This document shows positions 40,127 to 46,373 of a stretch of DNA of 64,000 nt, in pieces. The translations under genes and the position numbers were made by a program. Positions within the stretch are counted from its first letter, which is position 1; the number at the start of each line of letters is the position of its first letter. The notes beneath the pieces are model-generated. The model was given only the letters and a program-made list of their open reading frames with translations. It made no database searches and was not told the DNA's origin. Source of the DNA: Pseudoclavibacter sp. AY1F1. GTDB lineage: Bacteria > Actinomycetota > Actinomycetes > Actinomycetales > Microbacteriaceae. The DNA lies in contig NZ_PSTQ01000009.1 of assembly GCF_002931075.1 (NCBI RefSeq), positions 62,001 to 126,000 of the forward strand, read 5' to 3'.

Positions 40127-40684
40127 CTACCGATGCACGGCTTCCCTGAGGTCTTTGATCAAGCGGGGAGTCCGCCCGCGTCGAACCCCGGGCAGCCAAG
40201 TCCTGGCCGGGTAGCTCAGTCGCACGACGAAGTAGTTGAGGTACTCGACGACGCCGAACGCCCACGTGAACGCGACCAGCGCCGCGGCCGGCCATGAGCT
40301 GGGCCACCAGGCCACGATGCCGACGAGCCCACCAATCAACACCACGAGGTTCAGCCACTTCAGAGCCCAGAAGACACGGGCGAGCCCGACGGGCATCCTT
40401 GATTCCCCGACCCAGCGCCGCGCCAGGAGCCAGTACGCACCGCCCTGCAGCAGCACGAACAGCAATGGCGCGAGGGCTGACCAGAACGCCGCGAGGTCCA
40501 TGCCAGTCGTCAGGATGGTCGGCACGGCCCACACCCCCAGCAGCGTGAACGTCACAACTGACGTCAGCTCGCCGGCGCCGAGTGAGAGGTATTGGCGGCG
40601 GGCGTCATGCCGCGTGCGAGGCGGCGAACCGCTCGATCGAGACGACCGCGCTCCGTCGGAGGGTGGCTGCAGGTGGTCCGTCAC
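40127..40684 (-). CDS. Four-helix membrane protein of unknown function
   Basis: Hypothetical membrane protein of 185 residues. A basic, disordered N-terminus (1-35) leads to four helices, for example ELTSVVTFTLLGVWAVPTIL, ALAPLLFVLLQGGAYWLLAR, LNLVVLIGGLVGIVAWW and AAALVAFTWAFGVVEYLNYF, and a basic tail. Its start overlaps the LacI stop by four bases, so it is the last gene of the LacI operon or reads through. Role unknown. Confidence 0.75.
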   Translation of the reverse strand: MTDHLQPPSDGARSSRSSGSPPRTRHDARRQYLSLGAGELTSVVTFTLLGVWAVPTILTTGMDLAAFWSALAPLLFVLLQGGAYWLLARRWVGESRMPVGLARVFWALKWLNLVVLIGGLVGIVAWWPSSWPAAALVAFTWAFGVVEYLNYFVVRLSYPARTWLPGVRRGRTPRLIKDLREAVHR

Positions 40685-41760
40685 CGCGAGCGCTCAACAG
40701 AGTTGCCGCTACCCCCGCTGCTGCTGCGCACCACGAGCTTGGTCGGCAGGATGCGGTGCTCACCGACCCGCGGCGACTCGCCCTCCGCATTCGCATCCAC
40801 GCGCCCGACCACCATGTCGACGGCGGCGGATGCGAGTTGCGCCGGGTCCTGCGCGAGGCTCGTGAGCTGCAGGTACGGCAGGTCCGCCTGTTCGGAGTTG
40901 TCGAACCCGACGACGGCGAGGTCCTCGGGGACACGCTTGCCGAGGAGGCGCGCCTGAGCGACAACTCCCTGCGCGCTGCGGTCGTTGAAGGCGACCACCG
41001 CGGTGGTCTCCGGGTAACGCTCCAGCGCATCCTCGATCGCCTTCGCGCCGGCGGCTTCCGACGCTCCCCCGGCAACTATCGCAATCTCGTCGCCGAGCCC
41101 GGCCGCGGCCGTGGCTTCAAGGAACGTCGCCGTGCGCACCTCATCACCCGAGACGCCCGGCGCCCCGAGGTACAGGATGCGCGAATGTCCGCGCTCGTGC
41201 AGATGCCGCACGGCGATCTCCATGCCGCGCGCGTCGTCCATGGAGACGCTGTCGAAGTGGTCAGACGAGTACTGGCTGGCGACCGTGACAACTGGAACCT
41301 CGCCGGCGATGCGGTCGATCCGTTCCTCGGGCAGCGACGCCCCGAGCAGCACGAGCCCCTCAACTCGCTCCCCAAGCAGCGCCTCGATCGCATCCGTTTC
41401 CCCGCGCCGCTTCGTCACGGCGGCAAGCGAGACGTTGTATCCGGCCTCCCGCGCCGCGAGCTGCAGCTCGTCGATGAGCTGACCGTGGAACGGCTGCGCT
41501 GCGTGGAAGACGATGCCGATGAGACGCGAGCGACCCTGCTTGAGCATCCGCGCCCGCTCGTCGCGCCGGTAGCCGAGGCGGGTTGCGACCTCGAGGACGT
41601 GCGCGCGCGAAGCTGGGCTCGCACCCGGCACGTCCCGCATGACAATCGACACGAGCGGCTGTGAGACACCAGCCGCGTCGGCGACATCGCGCATCGTGAC
41701 GCGCCTACCGCCGCCCGGGCGCGCCGGGCGGCGGTAGTCACGTTCGTCGGCGTCGCTCAT
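40681..41760 (-). CDS. LacI-family repressor
   Basis: Repressor of 359 residues: helix-turn-helix TMRDVADAAGVSQPLVSIVM with hinge-helix residues near 65, then a periplasmic-binding-protein-like domain (RLIGIVFHAAQPFHGQLIDE; VEGLVLLGASLP; DLAVVGFDNSEQADLPYLQL). The start overlaps the upstream isomerase stop (ATGA). It probably controls its own operon and the divergent sugar porter through the palindrome at 43667. Confidence 0.92.
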   Translation of the reverse strand: MSDADERDYRRPARPGGGRRVTMRDVADAAGVSQPLVSIVMRDVPGASPASRAHVLEVATRLGYRRDERARMLKQGRSRLIGIVFHAAQPFHGQLIDELQLAAREAGYNVSLAAVTKRRGETDAIEALLGERVEGLVLLGASLPEERIDRIAGEVPVVTVASQYSSDHFDSVSMDDARGMEIAVRHLHERGHSRILYLGAPGVSGDEVRTATFLEATAAAGLGDEIAIVAGGASEAAGAKAIEDALERYPETTAVVAFNDRSAQGVVAQARLLGKRVPEDLAVVGFDNSEQADLPYLQLTSLAQDPAQLASAAVDMVVGRVDANAEGESPRVGEHRILPTKLVVRSSSGGSGNSVERSR

Positions 41761-42584
41761 ACCTCGATGCTAAAGGCCTCCCGGAAGCGGCGCAGCGCGA
41801 GGTCGGAATCGGCGGACGCAAACGCCTCCATCGCGACGACTCCCCGATACCCCAGCTCGTCGAGGGCACGCGCGACCCGCGGGTAGTGGATCTCGCCCGT
41901 GCCCGGCTCGCAGCGGCCCGGCACATCCGCGACCTGGATCTCGCCGATGTACGGCAGCGCCCGGCCGCACAGGTCGACAAGATCACCCTCGCCGATCTGC
42001 GCGTGGTACAGGTCCAGGTTGAGTCGGAGGTGCGGGCTGTCGACAGCCGCGACGAGCGCGATCGTGTCGCTCGCCCGGTTGAACGGAACCCCAGGGTGGT
42101 CGACGGCGTGGTTCAGGTTCTCGAGCGTGAAGACCTTGCCGTACTCCTCGCCGAGCTTCGCGAGCCGCTCGAGCGTGCGCAGCGCGGCGAGCCAATCGGC
42201 CGGGGTCGTGTGCGCACTCGGCCGCACGGGCAAACCGTCGTCGTCGAGACCCGTGCCGTGGATCACGAGGCGCGGCACGTTCAGCACCTGCGCCGCCTCG
42301 AGCGACTCGCGCGCGGTGGTCACGATCTCGTCGGCTCCATCCGGGTCGATCAGCTCGCCGCGGATGTACCCCGACATGGAGCCGAACGTCGCGCCGGTCG
42401 CGACGAGCGCATCCAGGTCCTTCTCCCACCAGCGCCAGATCTCGACCTCGAACCCGGCGTCATCGATGCGGCGCACGCGCTCCTCGAACGGCAGGTCGAG
42501 GAAGAGCATTTCCGCGCAGGCGGCAAGCACAAACGGCGATGCCGCGGAGCTGCCAGTGCCCGTAGCCGCAACTGCCGCGCTCAT
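41757..42584 (-). CDS. TIM-barrel sugar isomerase/epimerase
   Basis: Xylose-isomerase-like TIM-barrel enzyme, 275 residues, close to hydroxypyruvate isomerase/IolI types. Metal-binding residues expected in FTLENLNH (Glu), HLRLNLDLYHAQIGEG (Asp, His) and the late Glu of VVAMEAF. It lies between a LacI repressor and a Gfo/Idh dehydrogenase, with four-base overlaps on both sides; together they probably oxidise and isomerise an inositol-like or unusual sugar. Confidence 0.88.
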   Translation of the reverse strand: MSAAVAATGTGSSAASPFVLAACAEMLFLDLPFEERVRRIDDAGFEVEIWRWWEKDLDALVATGATFGSMSGYIRGELIDPDGADEIVTTARESLEAAQVLNVPRLVIHGTGLDDDGLPVRPSAHTTPADWLAALRTLERLAKLGEEYGKVFTLENLNHAVDHPGVPFNRASDTIALVAAVDSPHLRLNLDLYHAQIGEGDLVDLCGRALPYIGEIQVADVPGRCEPGTGEIHYPRVARALDELGYRGVVAMEAFASADSDLALRRFREAFSIEV

Positions 42585-43594
42585 CGGACGACCTCAACCG
42601 GTGCGCCGGTCTTGACCGACTCGATGCAGGCGAGCGCGATGACCATCGCCTCGAGCGCGGCTTCCGTGCCGGGGCGGGGGGTCTCGACGCCGGCGACGGC
42701 GTTGACAAACGCCTGCAGCTCGCCCGTGTAGGCGGCGCGCATGAGCTGCGTGTCGGCGCGCACGGTGTCGCAGGATGCGCCGGCCGCGCCGTAGAGGCGG
42801 AGGCTCGACGCGGCGAGCTCGCCGGCCGTCGCCATGCCTGCGCTGCCGAAGACCTCGGCGCGGGTGTCGTACCCGTAGGCGGCCGAGAAATTCGCCTCTG
42901 CCGTGGCAATGGCGCCGTTGTCGTAGCGGATCGTGACGACCGAGGTGTCGAGCAGCCCCTTGTCCTTGAAGTCCGGAGCGACAAGCGCATCAGCAACCGC
43001 GTAGACGGAGGTCGCTCGGGCGCCCGGGTTGAAGAAGTTGAGGGTGTCGAAGTCGTGGATGAGCGTCTCAAGGAAGATCGTGAACGGCGGGATCGCGGCG
43101 GGGTTCGCAAGTCCCGGGTCGCGGGTCACCGAGCGGAGCAGCTGCGGGGTGCCGAGGGTTCCCGCGTCGAGGGCGGAGCGCAGCTCGGGGAAGCCGTTCG
43201 CGTAGCGGCGGTTGAAGCCGACCTGGAAGACGACTCCGTGACGCTCGACGGCGGCCTCGACGCGGCGCAGTTCCGCAAGCGAGACGCCGGTCGGCTTCTC
43301 GCAGAAGATGGCCTTGCCCGCCGCGGCCGCCTGCTCGACAAGCGCGGTGTGGAAGCGCGGCGGTGCCGTGATGACCACCGCGTCGAGGTCGGGGCGGGCG
43401 AGCAGCTCGGCGACGTCCGTGTACGGCTGTTCGACGCCGAGCGAATCGGCGAGCGACGCTGCTGCACCCTCGACGGGGTCGGCGATGGCGATGAGCTCGG
43501 CATTCGGGATGTCGCGGGCGATGAGCGCTGCGTGGTTGCTGCCGATGCGGCCGGCACCGATGAGGGCGACGCGGATGTGGGGGTTCGTGGTCAT
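42581..43594 (-). CDS. Gfo/Idh/MocA-family dehydrogenase
   Basis: NAD(P)-dependent sugar or inositol dehydrogenase, 337 residues. Rossmann motif ALIGAGRIGSNHAALIA at the start, the catalytic Lys in CEKPTG, and the downstream His/Asp pair in LIHDFDTLNFF. The sequence most resembles inositol 2-dehydrogenase, but other cyclic polyols are possible. First gene of the minus-strand operon with the isomerase and LacI, and divergent from the sugar porter. Confidence 0.9.
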   Translation of the reverse strand: MTTNPHIRVALIGAGRIGSNHAALIARDIPNAELIAIADPVEGAAASLADSLGVEQPYTDVAELLARPDLDAVVITAPPRFHTALVEQAAAAGKAIFCEKPTGVSLAELRRVEAAVERHGVVFQVGFNRRYANGFPELRSALDAGTLGTPQLLRSVTRDPGLANPAAIPPFTIFLETLIHDFDTLNFFNPGARATSVYAVADALVAPDFKDKGLLDTSVVTIRYDNGAIATAEANFSAAYGYDTRAEVFGSAGMATAGELAASSLRLYGAAGASCDTVRADTQLMRAAYTGELQAFVNAVAGVETPRPGTEAALEAMVIALACIESVKTGAPVEVVR

Positions 43595-43666
43595 GGTGTT
43601 TCTCCTGGGGACGGCGGTGCCGACACGACACTGTGCTGCTGGGTGCGCCCAGCAAGAGCAGACTAT

Positions 43667-43696
43667 TACGTACTAGCGCTCGACGTCTAGTACGTA
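43667..43696. promoter_or_regulatory. Long palindromic operator between dehydrogenase and sugar porter
   Basis: TACGTACTAG and CTAGTACGTA are perfect ten-base inverted repeats with a ten-base centre (CGCTCGACGT). The element lies between two divergent units controlled by one LacI protein and touches TATAAG (43695). Strong candidate LacI operator. Confidence 0.65.
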
Positions 43697-43754
43697 TAAG
43701 GTTGCCTCCAATCGGCCGGTCGACCCGGCCCAGATCGCGGACAAAGGAGTTCTC

Positions 43755-45203
43755 ATCACTTCCACGCACGGGGCATCAGCGTCAGAGACAGCCCTTCCCA
43801 AACTCACACCGGGCCCGTACCGCAAGCGGCTCGGCCTCATCTCGATCGTCGCCTGCTTCGGCGGCCTGCTCTTCGGCTACGACACGGGCGTCATCAACGG
43901 CGCCCTGCGCCCGATGGCCGCCGAGATCGGCCTCGACGCCTTCACCGAGGGTGTCGTCACCAGCTCCCTCGTGTTCGCCGCCGCCTTCGGCGCGCTCTTC
44001 GGCGGACGCATCTCCGACGCCATCGGCCGCCGCCGCACGATCATCATCCTCGCCGTCCTCTTCTTCGTCGGCACGGTCGTCGTCGTGGCGTCGCCGAACT
44101 TCGCGCTGCTGGTCGTGGGACGCATCCTGCTCGGCCTCGCCGTCGGCGGCGCATCCACGGTTGTGCCGGTCTACCTTGCCGAGCTCGCGCCGTTCGAGAT
44201 CCGCGGGTCGATCACGGGCCGCAACGAGGTCGCGATCGTCACGGGCCAGCTCTCCGCGTTTGTCATCAACGCGATCCTCGGCAACACGCTCAGCCACGTC
44301 GATGGGGTCTGGCGCATCATGTTCGCGGTCTGCGCTATTCCGGCGATCTGCCTGTTCTTCGGGATGCTCCGCATGCCCGAGTCGCCCCGCTGGCTTGTCG
44401 AGAAGGGCCGCCACGCGGACGCCCTCGCCGTACTCAAGACGGTCCGCTCCGAGGAGCGCGCGATCGCCGAGCTCGGCGAGGTCGAGCAGGTCGCGGAAGA
44501 GGAGCAGAAGGAATCGAAGGTCGGTCTCGCGGCCGTTCTGACGAACAAGTGGCTCATCCGCATCCTGCTCATCGGCATCGGCGTCTCGATGATGCAGCAG
44601 CTGACCGGCATCAACTCGATCATGTACTACGGCCAGGTCGTGCTGATCGAGTCCGGCTTCGAGGCAAGCGCAGCCCTCATCGCGAACATTGCGCCCGGCG
44701 TCGTCGCCGTCATCGGCGGGTTCATCGCCCTGTACATGATGGACCGCGTCGACCGCCGGAAAACGTTCGCGATCGGCCTCACCCTCACGACCACGTGCCA
44801 CTTGCTCATCGGCGCCTCATCACTGCTACTGCCCGTCGGGAACCCGGCCCGCCCGTTCGTGATCCTCATCCTCGTCGTCGCGTTCGTCGCATCAATGCAG
44901 ACCTTCCTCAACGTCGCCGTCTGGGTCTACCTGGCAGAGATCTTCCCGCTGCACATGCGCGGCCTCGGCATCGGCGTCTCCGTGTTCTTCGGCTGGATGA
45001 CCAACGGATTCCTCGCCCTCTACTTCCCGAGCCTCATCGCCGGGATGGGCATCAGCGGCGTCTTCTTCCTGTTCGCCGGCATCGGAGCCCTCGCGCTGAT
45101 CTTCACGATCACGCAGGTTCCCGAGACCCGCGGCGTGACCCTCGAGAAGCTCGAGGTCGGTGTCACGACGGGAGCCATCCACGTGCTCGGCAAGAGCCGC
45201 TAA
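43755..45203 (+). CDS. Sugar porter (SP family) with ATC start codon
   Basis: Twelve-helix proton/sugar symporter of 482 residues if started at ATC 43755. AAAGGAG sits five bases before that codon, and TSTHGASASETALPKLTPGP leads into helix 1 (CFGGLLFGYDTGVINGAL). Between the upstream stop at 43674 and ATG 43914 the frame has no ATG, GTG or TTG, and starting at 43914 would delete helix 1 and its essential GYDTG motif. Family signatures follow: GGRISDAIGRRRTI, PESPRWLVEKGR, and the end motif VPETRGVTLEKLE. Likely imports the sugar or cyclitol used by the divergent operon. Either a rare ATC start or a damaged ATG. Confidence 0.85.
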   Translation: MTSTHGASASETALPKLTPGPYRKRLGLISIVACFGGLLFGYDTGVINGALRPMAAEIGLDAFTEGVVTSSLVFAAAFGALFGGRISDAIGRRRTIIILAVLFFVGTVVVVASPNFALLVVGRILLGLAVGGASTVVPVYLAELAPFEIRGSITGRNEVAIVTGQLSAFVINAILGNTLSHVDGVWRIMFAVCAIPAICLFFGMLRMPESPRWLVEKGRHADALAVLKTVRSEERAIAELGEVEQVAEEEQKESKVGLAAVLTNKWLIRILLIGIGVSMMQQLTGINSIMYYGQVVLIESGFEASAALIANIAPGVVAVIGGFIALYMMDRVDRRKTFAIGLTLTTTCHLLIGASSLLLPVGNPARPFVILILVVAFVASMQTFLNVAVWVYLAEIFPLHMRGLGIGVSVFFGWMTNGFLALYFPSLIAGMGISGVFFLFAGIGALALIFTITQVPETRGVTLEKLEVGVTTGAIHVLGKSR

Positions 45204-45244: not shown

Positions 45245-45408
45245 GACCCGCCCGCGGGGCCGGCTACGATTTGGACGTCCTGGCCGGACCCCGCGGGCTT
45301 TTCTGCGCGCCTACCTGAGCGTCCGCCGAGAAGCGCGAAGACGTGCATCCGATGTCGGAACGCTTTCGCCCGCCCGAGTGTTGTCCTGATGTTGGAGAGG
45401 ACATACCC

Positions 45409-45864
45409 ATGACGCAGTACACGAAAGACCAAGACGCCATCGCTCGGCTCACGCCTGAGCAGTACGCCGTGACACAGCAGTCGGCGACCGAACGCCCATT
45501 CGACAACGAGTTCTGGCACAACGACGACCGGGGCCTCTACGTCGACATCGTCTCCAGCGAGCCCCTGTTCGCCTCGACCACCAAGTACGACAGCGGATGC
45601 GGGTGGCCCAGCTTCACGAAGCCACTGAGCGCAGAGAACATCGTCGAGAACTCCGACACGTCGCTCGGCATGCGGCGCACGGAGGTGCGTTCGTCCGCCG
45701 CTGACAGCCACCTCGGCCATGTCTTCGACGATGGCCCCGCCGACCAGGGAGGGCTGCGCTACTGCATCAACTCGGCTGCGTTGCGCTTCGTTCCGCTCGA
45801 AGACCTTGAGACGGATGGCTACGGCCAGTACATCGGACTGTTCGAGGACAAGGCGGGCATGTGA
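45409..45864 (+). CDS. msrB: Peptide-methionine (R)-S-oxide reductase, zinc-free form
   Basis: Repairs methionine-R-sulfoxide in proteins; 151 residues. SGCGWPSF with resolving Cys64, [10 protein letters not shown], and the catalytic Cys119 in RYCINSAAL. The two CXXC zinc clusters of zinc-type MsrB are absent. ATG 45409 follows GGAGAGG; earlier in-frame codons have no support. Its stop overlaps msrA by one base, so both stereoisomers are repaired by one operon. Confidence 0.95.
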
Positions 45865-46373
45865 TGACTGACGAGCGCGCGATTCTTGCCGGCGGATGCT
45901 TCTGGGGGCTCGAGGAACTCATCCGCGACCTGCCTGGGGTGTTCAGCACGCGGGTTGGCTACGCCGGCGGCACCACCCCGAACGCCACCTACCGGCACCA
46001 CGGCGACCATGCCGAGGCCGTCGAGATCGAGTTCGACCCGTCGAAGACCTCGTACCGTGATCTGCTCGAGTTCTTCTTCCAGGTACACGACCCGACCACG
46101 AAGAACCGGCAGGGCAACGACCGTGGCACGAGCTACCGCTCGGTGATCTTGGCGCTCACCCCCGAGCAGGAGCGAGTGGCGCGCGAGACGATCGCCGACA
46201 TCGACGCATCTGGTCGCTGGCCCGGCAAGGTCGTCACGAAGCTCGAATCGGCCGGCGAATTCTGGGATGCGGAGGAAGAACACCAGAACTACCTCCGCAA
46301 GCACCCGGGCGGCTACACGTGCCACTACGTGCGCCCCGGCTGGGTGCTCGAAGACTCGGCTGCGACGAGCTAG
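45864..46373 (+). CDS. msrA: Peptide-methionine (S)-S-oxide reductase
   Basis: Repairs methionine-S-sulfoxide; 169 residues. The catalytic Cys12 is in GGCFWGLEE, followed by [26 protein letters not shown] and the YHQ-like EHQNYL. No C-terminal recycling cysteines are seen. It is coupled to msrB (TGATG). A GTG three bases earlier is an alternative start. Confidence 0.95.

Follow-up and report, generated by a model that had tools for sequence, protein, structure and literature searches.

ATC is almost never used as a start codon. Here, we ask whether a sugar porter gene of Pseudoclavibacter sp. AY1F1 begins with one and, if so, what such a start would mean for the synthesis of the transporter. 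The window analyzed is a 64,000-nucleotide stretch of contig NZ_PSTQ01000009.1, and its features are listed in Table 1. The reading frame of the transporter is open from the TAG at 43674-43676 to the TAA at 45201-45203. Its first ATG, GTG, or TTG is the ATG at 43914, 79 codons beyond the upstream stop; the first-pass annotation had claimed that none lies between the two, and a frame scan confirmed this. An ATC at 43755-43757 on the forward strand was found, from both the sequence and its translation, to be in frame with the coding sequence, and 26 codons are open ahead of it. The same annotation had placed an AAAGGAG five bases before this ATC, and its coordinates proved exact. The gene therefore has the makeup of a genuine conserved AUN-start gene: no canonical start codon stands at the proper place, and the Shine-Dalgarno (SD) spacing to the AUN codon is correct.

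Table 1. Features of the sugar porter locus (positions in the window)
Feature	Position	Strand	Remarks
LacI-family regulator	40681..41760	-	PF00356, PF13377
Xylose-isomerase-like TIM barrel protein (sugar isomerase/epimerase type)	41757..42584	-	PF01261, 94.1 bits
Gfo/Idh/MocA oxidoreductase, inositol 2-dehydrogenase-like	42581..43594	-	Divergent; TIGR04380, 301.9 bits, below cutoff of 355
Inverted repeat TACGTACTAG-N10-CTAGTACGTA, 30 nt	43667..43696		Possible operator in divergent promoter region
Invariant 26-nt block	43740..43765	+	Six orthologs; 15 nt noncoding
Shine-Dalgarno AAAGGAG	43743..43749	+	Spacer TTCTC, 5 nt to ATC
AUC (ATC) start codon, very probable	43755..43757	+	Same position in 6/6 genus orthologs
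Sugar porter (SP family, MFS) coding sequence	43755..45203	+	482 aa plus stop when read from ATC; TIGR00879, PF00083, GlcP 4lds
Met54, first in-frame canonical codon	43914..43916	+	Judged internal, not a start

The encoded protein belongs to the sugar porter family of MFS transporters (TIGR00879, 332.3 bits against a cutoff of 237.8). Its match to PF00083 (Sugar_tr) scores 337.4 bits over residues 30 to 467, and the closest solved chain in the PDB is that of the glucose transporter GlcP (4lds), matched from residue 28. Like the SP-family sugar porters GlcP, XylE, and the GLUTs, it is of this family over nearly its whole length; the start codon is the unusual part. Read from the ATC, the protein enters the Sugar_tr profile at position 2, in agreement with the earlier description of a normal SP-family N terminus. 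Read from 43914, it enters only at position 48, and the earlier claim that this start would remove helix 1 is upheld to that extent; in this family, the missing part corresponds to that helix.

Orthologs were sought in 10 Pseudoclavibacter genomes at E values of up to 1e-100. Six of the genomes carry one, 95 to 100% identical and full length or nearly so, and none was found in the other four at this threshold. All six orthologs have kept the noncanonical ATC at the same place. The named near-copies are those of Pseudoclavibacter terrae, P. helvolus, Pseudoclavibacter sp. RFBB5, and Pseudoclavibacter sp. AY1H1 (L028 to L031). A search of 398 sampled genomes of the family with the pattern AAAGGAGTTCTCATCACTTCCAC, allowing up to three mismatches, returned exactly those six, with one site each and no mismatches. 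The orthologs differ from one another at 23 to 43% of fourfold sites, and 82 of 281 such sites are identical across the six. Around the ATC, an invariant run extends from -15 to +11 (26 nt) and takes in the spacer and the second and third codons; upstream of it, the leaders differ in length. Another invariant run of equal length lies inside the coding sequence, at offset 852 from the ATC. ATC is also the favored Ile codon, and the invariant Ile codons of the gene often keep their third base across the six (32 of 38), so the unchanged C alone is no proof of a start. Since the six copies form one family in one genus and most likely have a single origin, they stand for one event and not for six independent ones. 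The identical site in all six is more than chance, and the AUC is very probably the true start of the sugar porter.

The wider family suggests how this codon arose. Starts were counted in 80 homologous loci of named genomes. A canonical codon stands at or near the ATC column in 74; it is joined by a loose SD-like 4-mer within 12 codons in 66, while in the other eight (L046, L060, L097, L041, L083, L105, L069, and L070) no motif was seen or the codon fell outside the stretch examined. ATC is found in four loci, the Pseudoclavibacter near-copies L028 to L031, and two (L101 and L107) have no start call. The Mycetocola reblochoni homolog (L101, about 1400-1500) lacks a canonical start up to 12 codons from where one is expected; its nearest in-frame GTG lies 21 codons upstream and is followed by a Gly/Ala/Arg-rich stretch. 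Because 74 of the 80 loci have ATG, GTG, or TTG at or near this place, an old change from ATG to ATC in the ancestor of the group is the likely origin. The same GACAAAGGAGT precedes the ATG of several homologs, including those of Sinomonas (L042) and Arthrobacter (L050), so the SD was probably strong before that change.

Seven paralogous loci of the genus (L007 to L013) have ATG at this place. One of them, L007 in genome G004, is about 91 to 93% like the ATC transporter L004, so a similar protein gets by with an ATG start. In a tree of 45 rows with the N terminus left out, L007 groups with the six ATC genes (SH-aLRT, 99), and the nesting of L007 within the ATC group has an SH-aLRT of 81. L007 may thus be nested there, and the history may be either a single gain, after which L007 went to ATG, or a gain that followed the duplication. 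L004 and L007 lie about 22 kb apart on contig C5 of G004, correspond by identity to P. helvolus L031 and L032, respectively, and, as a ready-made pair, lend themselves to a comparison of what the two start codons do.

In the mechanism proposed here, the strong AAAGGAG would place the 30S subunit at the AUC, which the ordinary CAU initiator tRNA would read even though the third codon base is mispaired (C-C). Initiator-type anticodon arms were located with the exact pattern GGGCTNATAACCC; all are CAT, one per genome, in 9 of the 10 genomes, with no match in G007, which is 83% complete. No arm with GAT, as expected of a dedicated AUC tRNA, matches the exact pattern in the 10 genomes, a search by which an arm of differing sequence would be missed. 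A special AUC-reading initiator tRNA was rejected, with only the CAT arm found by this one exact pattern.

Initiation at the AUC would be weak, roughly a tenth of that at AUG by analogy with measured cases, and the codon probably lowers translation of the transporter; the reduced expression that the first-pass annotation had anticipated is plausible. In Staphylococcus, conserved starts of the AUA and AUU type behind strong SDs work at about 10% of AUG, with ccpN reaching up to 30% in rich medium (passages of PMC13009471). In Bacillus subtilis, a rny-lacZ fusion with a mutant AUC start is reported to be expressed at much below the wild-type level (PMC10303841, in part). IF3, according to the text seen of PMC10158994, favors stronger third-base pairs, and rising IF3 eliminates the products of weak pairs, AUC/UAU among them, a comparison that rests on AUC/UAU and not on the exact pair AUC/CAU. 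Passages of PMC5472188 give the start of the IF3 gene infC as ATT in Escherichia coli and ATC in Streptomyces and report that, in the latter actinobacterium, SigR made from a GTC start is lowered by extra IF3 and raised by IF3 fidelity mutants. IF3 would discriminate against the transporter AUC as it does at infC, and, by this analogy, we consider it somewhat probable that synthesis from the AUC is IF3 sensitive. The conserved codon would then cap translation at a low level, with the cap rising when there is little IF3 per 30S subunit. Five leader stretches, drawn from four of the six genomes, were folded in search of RNA structure, and none lies clearly below shuffled sequences (z, -0.07 to 0.89).

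The infC gene itself was compared across the Microbacteriaceae in 38 loci (L117 to L125 and L192 to L220), 9 from the genus and 29 from other genera; the latter come from 30 of 39 matches, one of which was the own genome. The codon placed by the SD is ATC in 36 loci and ATT in 2. In the six transporter-bearing genomes, infC begins with ATC after AGGAG, and no canonical codon lies upstream in frame. Such codons are absent upstream in 22 of the 38 loci and present in 16, so in those 16 the ATC or ATT call rests on SD placement and alignment; in L118 (Pseudoclavibacter), L200, and L202, an ATG lies five codons ahead of the infC ATC. The start of infC in the Microbacteriaceae may be misplaced by gene callers.

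Further genes of this kind were sought in 1.264 Mb (31% of the genome), in 399 strongly coding frames of at least 90 codons, a smaller number than the roughly one gene per kilobase that would be expected. Sampling was not random: the transporter lies in the window, and C26:170001-190000 was chosen in the knowledge that infC lies there (L124, G000:C26, about 188100). Only strict SD motifs were counted, so an AUC gene with a weaker SD could be missed; a strict canonical SD start was recognized in 135 of the 399 frames. Twelve sites combine an SD with a noncanonical codon. A canonical codon follows directly in six and 7 to 8 codons on in four, and the remainder are the transporter and infC, in which the next canonical codon lies 53 and 31 codons away, respectively. 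No third AUC-type gene was found among the 399 frames, in 31% of the genome. AAAGGAG or AAGGAGG stands 4 to 10 nt before a canonical codon in at least 11 of the 399 frames (first 100 codons of each). The top-scoring candidate of the survey, L143 (5177-8377, minus strand), is a long frame with codon bias and an unprotein-like, Gly/Arg/Asp-rich translation. Judged by eye from that translation, it was set aside as a shadow frame, probably antisense to a real gene.

The transporter is divergent from the oxidoreductase, the TIM barrel protein, and the LacI-family regulator (Table 1). An ortholog of the oxidoreductase adjoins the transporter in all six loci (88 to 100% identical), and the neighboring genes lead us to guess that the transported sugar is inositol or a related polyol. 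The LacI-family regulator is the candidate binder of the inverted repeat, and transcription would probably be controlled separately by it at the divergent operator. The repeat occurs once per genome, at the same intergenic place, in the six transporter-bearing genomes and is absent from the other four. In 4 of the 10 genomes, a backwards control pattern matches just as often, at a single site (up to two mismatches); what speaks for an operator is therefore the fixed place of the repeat, which is suggestive only. No sigma-70 consensus promoter was found in 43560-43800. Elsewhere in the window, 45343-46373 holds two adjacent genes that, from their translations, we take to resemble methionine sulfoxide reductases B and A.

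Whether the AUC has a function is a separate matter from its use as a start. A regulatory role kept by selection is a tentative proposal, to which we give rather less than an even chance. To the same tentative degree, sugar uptake may be wired to the translation machinery, with synthesis tracking the IF3/30S ratio, and hence the growth state, as a second layer above LacI-type transcriptional control. The strongest rival accepts the same start site and differs in function only: the AUC would be real and merely tolerated, a weak start fixed by ancestral drift and offset by the strong SD, without regulatory role. Its restriction to one genus with a probably single origin, the GACAAAGGAGT-type SD before ATG in other genera, and the lack of a folding signal in the leader all speak for this. 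Against it, full initiation is only one base change (to ATG) away, and still ATC has been kept in all six orthologs over their 23 to 43% fourfold divergence, and the spacer and the second and third codons are also unchanged. Moreover, the sample holds just one other gene of this kind, infC, in which AUN starts are regulatory according to passages of PMC5472188. We regard mere tolerance as doubtful, though a serious contender.

The other readings place the start elsewhere or deny it. Translation from the ATG at 43914, with the part upstream as an untranslated leader, would have the first canonical codon, a conserved one, on its side, but no SD-like sequence lies in the 25 nt before it. Among codons 14 to 53, ahead of this ATG, 18 of 40 are variable, all synonymously and none nonsynonymously, so this stretch is translated; over the 52 codons after the ATC, the variable codons are 23 synonymous and 3 nonsynonymous. 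Of the 74 homologs with a canonical start of their own, 69 have an internal Met aligned at residue 54. With the Pfam match truncated and helix 1 lost as well, this start was rejected as highly improbable. A start upstream or in another frame, reaching the transporter frame by read-through or frameshifting, draws on the 26 open codons before the ATC in the window and on codons that run over the ATC in other frames, one or two per ortholog and each its own: GTG at -122 and TTG at -53, both in frame +1, in L001 to L003, and separate starts in each of L004, L005, and L006. None of these recurs at one position and in one frame across all six, however, and no other-frame ATG, GTG, or TTG within 150 nt upstream is shared by all. 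L006 has an in-frame TGA 36 nt (12 codons) before the ATC, with no NTG codon between, and the leader lengths vary. This reading, for which no shared candidate was found within 150 nt, was likewise rejected and has very little to recommend it.

That the ATC is a misread base or a fresh mutation of ATG that damaged the gene in this strain is next to impossible: although ATC is one base from ATG and such a mutation is reported for one broken PAAR gene copy in Neisseria (PMC10210955, in part), the same bases stand in six separate genomes despite their 23 to 43% fourfold differences, and the coding sequence is intact and conserved. The first-pass annotation had left the choice between a true ATC start and a mutated ATG and had proposed aligning close relatives to see an ATG here; the true start stood, the read error or strain-level mutation fell, and the relatives with an ortholog have ATC as well. 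The codons show an intact protein on which purifying selection acts.

Known systems resemble the AUC start of the transporter in part. For infC, passages of PMC5472188 and PMC13009471 give AUU as the start in E. coli, ATC as that in Streptomyces, and AUA as that in Staphylococcus aureus; the Microbacteriaceae loci compared here have ATC or ATT. As in infC, an AUN start follows a good SD and is kept across species, but infC is autoregulated and widespread, whereas the transporter has its ATC in a single genus and cannot control its own synthesis. Streptomyces sigR (PMC5472188, in part) is likewise an actinobacterial gene other than infC with a noncanonical start conserved within its genus. It differs in its GTC codon, in the experimental demonstration of IF3 repression, and in encoding a sigma factor whose start sets its ratio to RsrA. 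The AUA of ccpN and the AUU of cvfC1 in Staphylococcus are conserved noncanonical starts with strong SDs, and ccpN acts in carbon metabolism with medium-dependent initiation; they differ in being from Firmicutes, in their codons, and in having been measured, at about 10% of AUG (all from passages of PMC13009471). In E. coli pcnB (AUU), a gene other than infC is again limited by an inefficient start, with a different codon, gene, and phylum (parts of PMC9410913 and PMC13009471). For the L12ae gene of Staphylothermus marinus, ATC was proposed from an alignment in the absence of a valid start codon, but in an archaeon, for a ribosomal protein, and from a single genome (PMC2678158, in part). Among the matches listed from the open-license literature, no title or abstract opening describes an AUC start on a sugar porter, and no publication in that literature was found that joins Pseudoclavibacter, a transporter, and a start codon.

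Gene callers restricted to ATG, GTG, and TTG would put the start of the transporter 53 codons late. In the parts of the literature cited here, few bacterial genes besides infC are known to have a conserved AUN start (pcnB, ccpN, and cvfC1). An AUC conserved in six genomes on a metabolic transporter, with the codon shared with infC, offers a simple test for IF3 control beyond infC in the Microbacteriaceae. If the proposed control is true, IF3 would govern a regulon of two or more genes in an actinobacterium other than Streptomyces.
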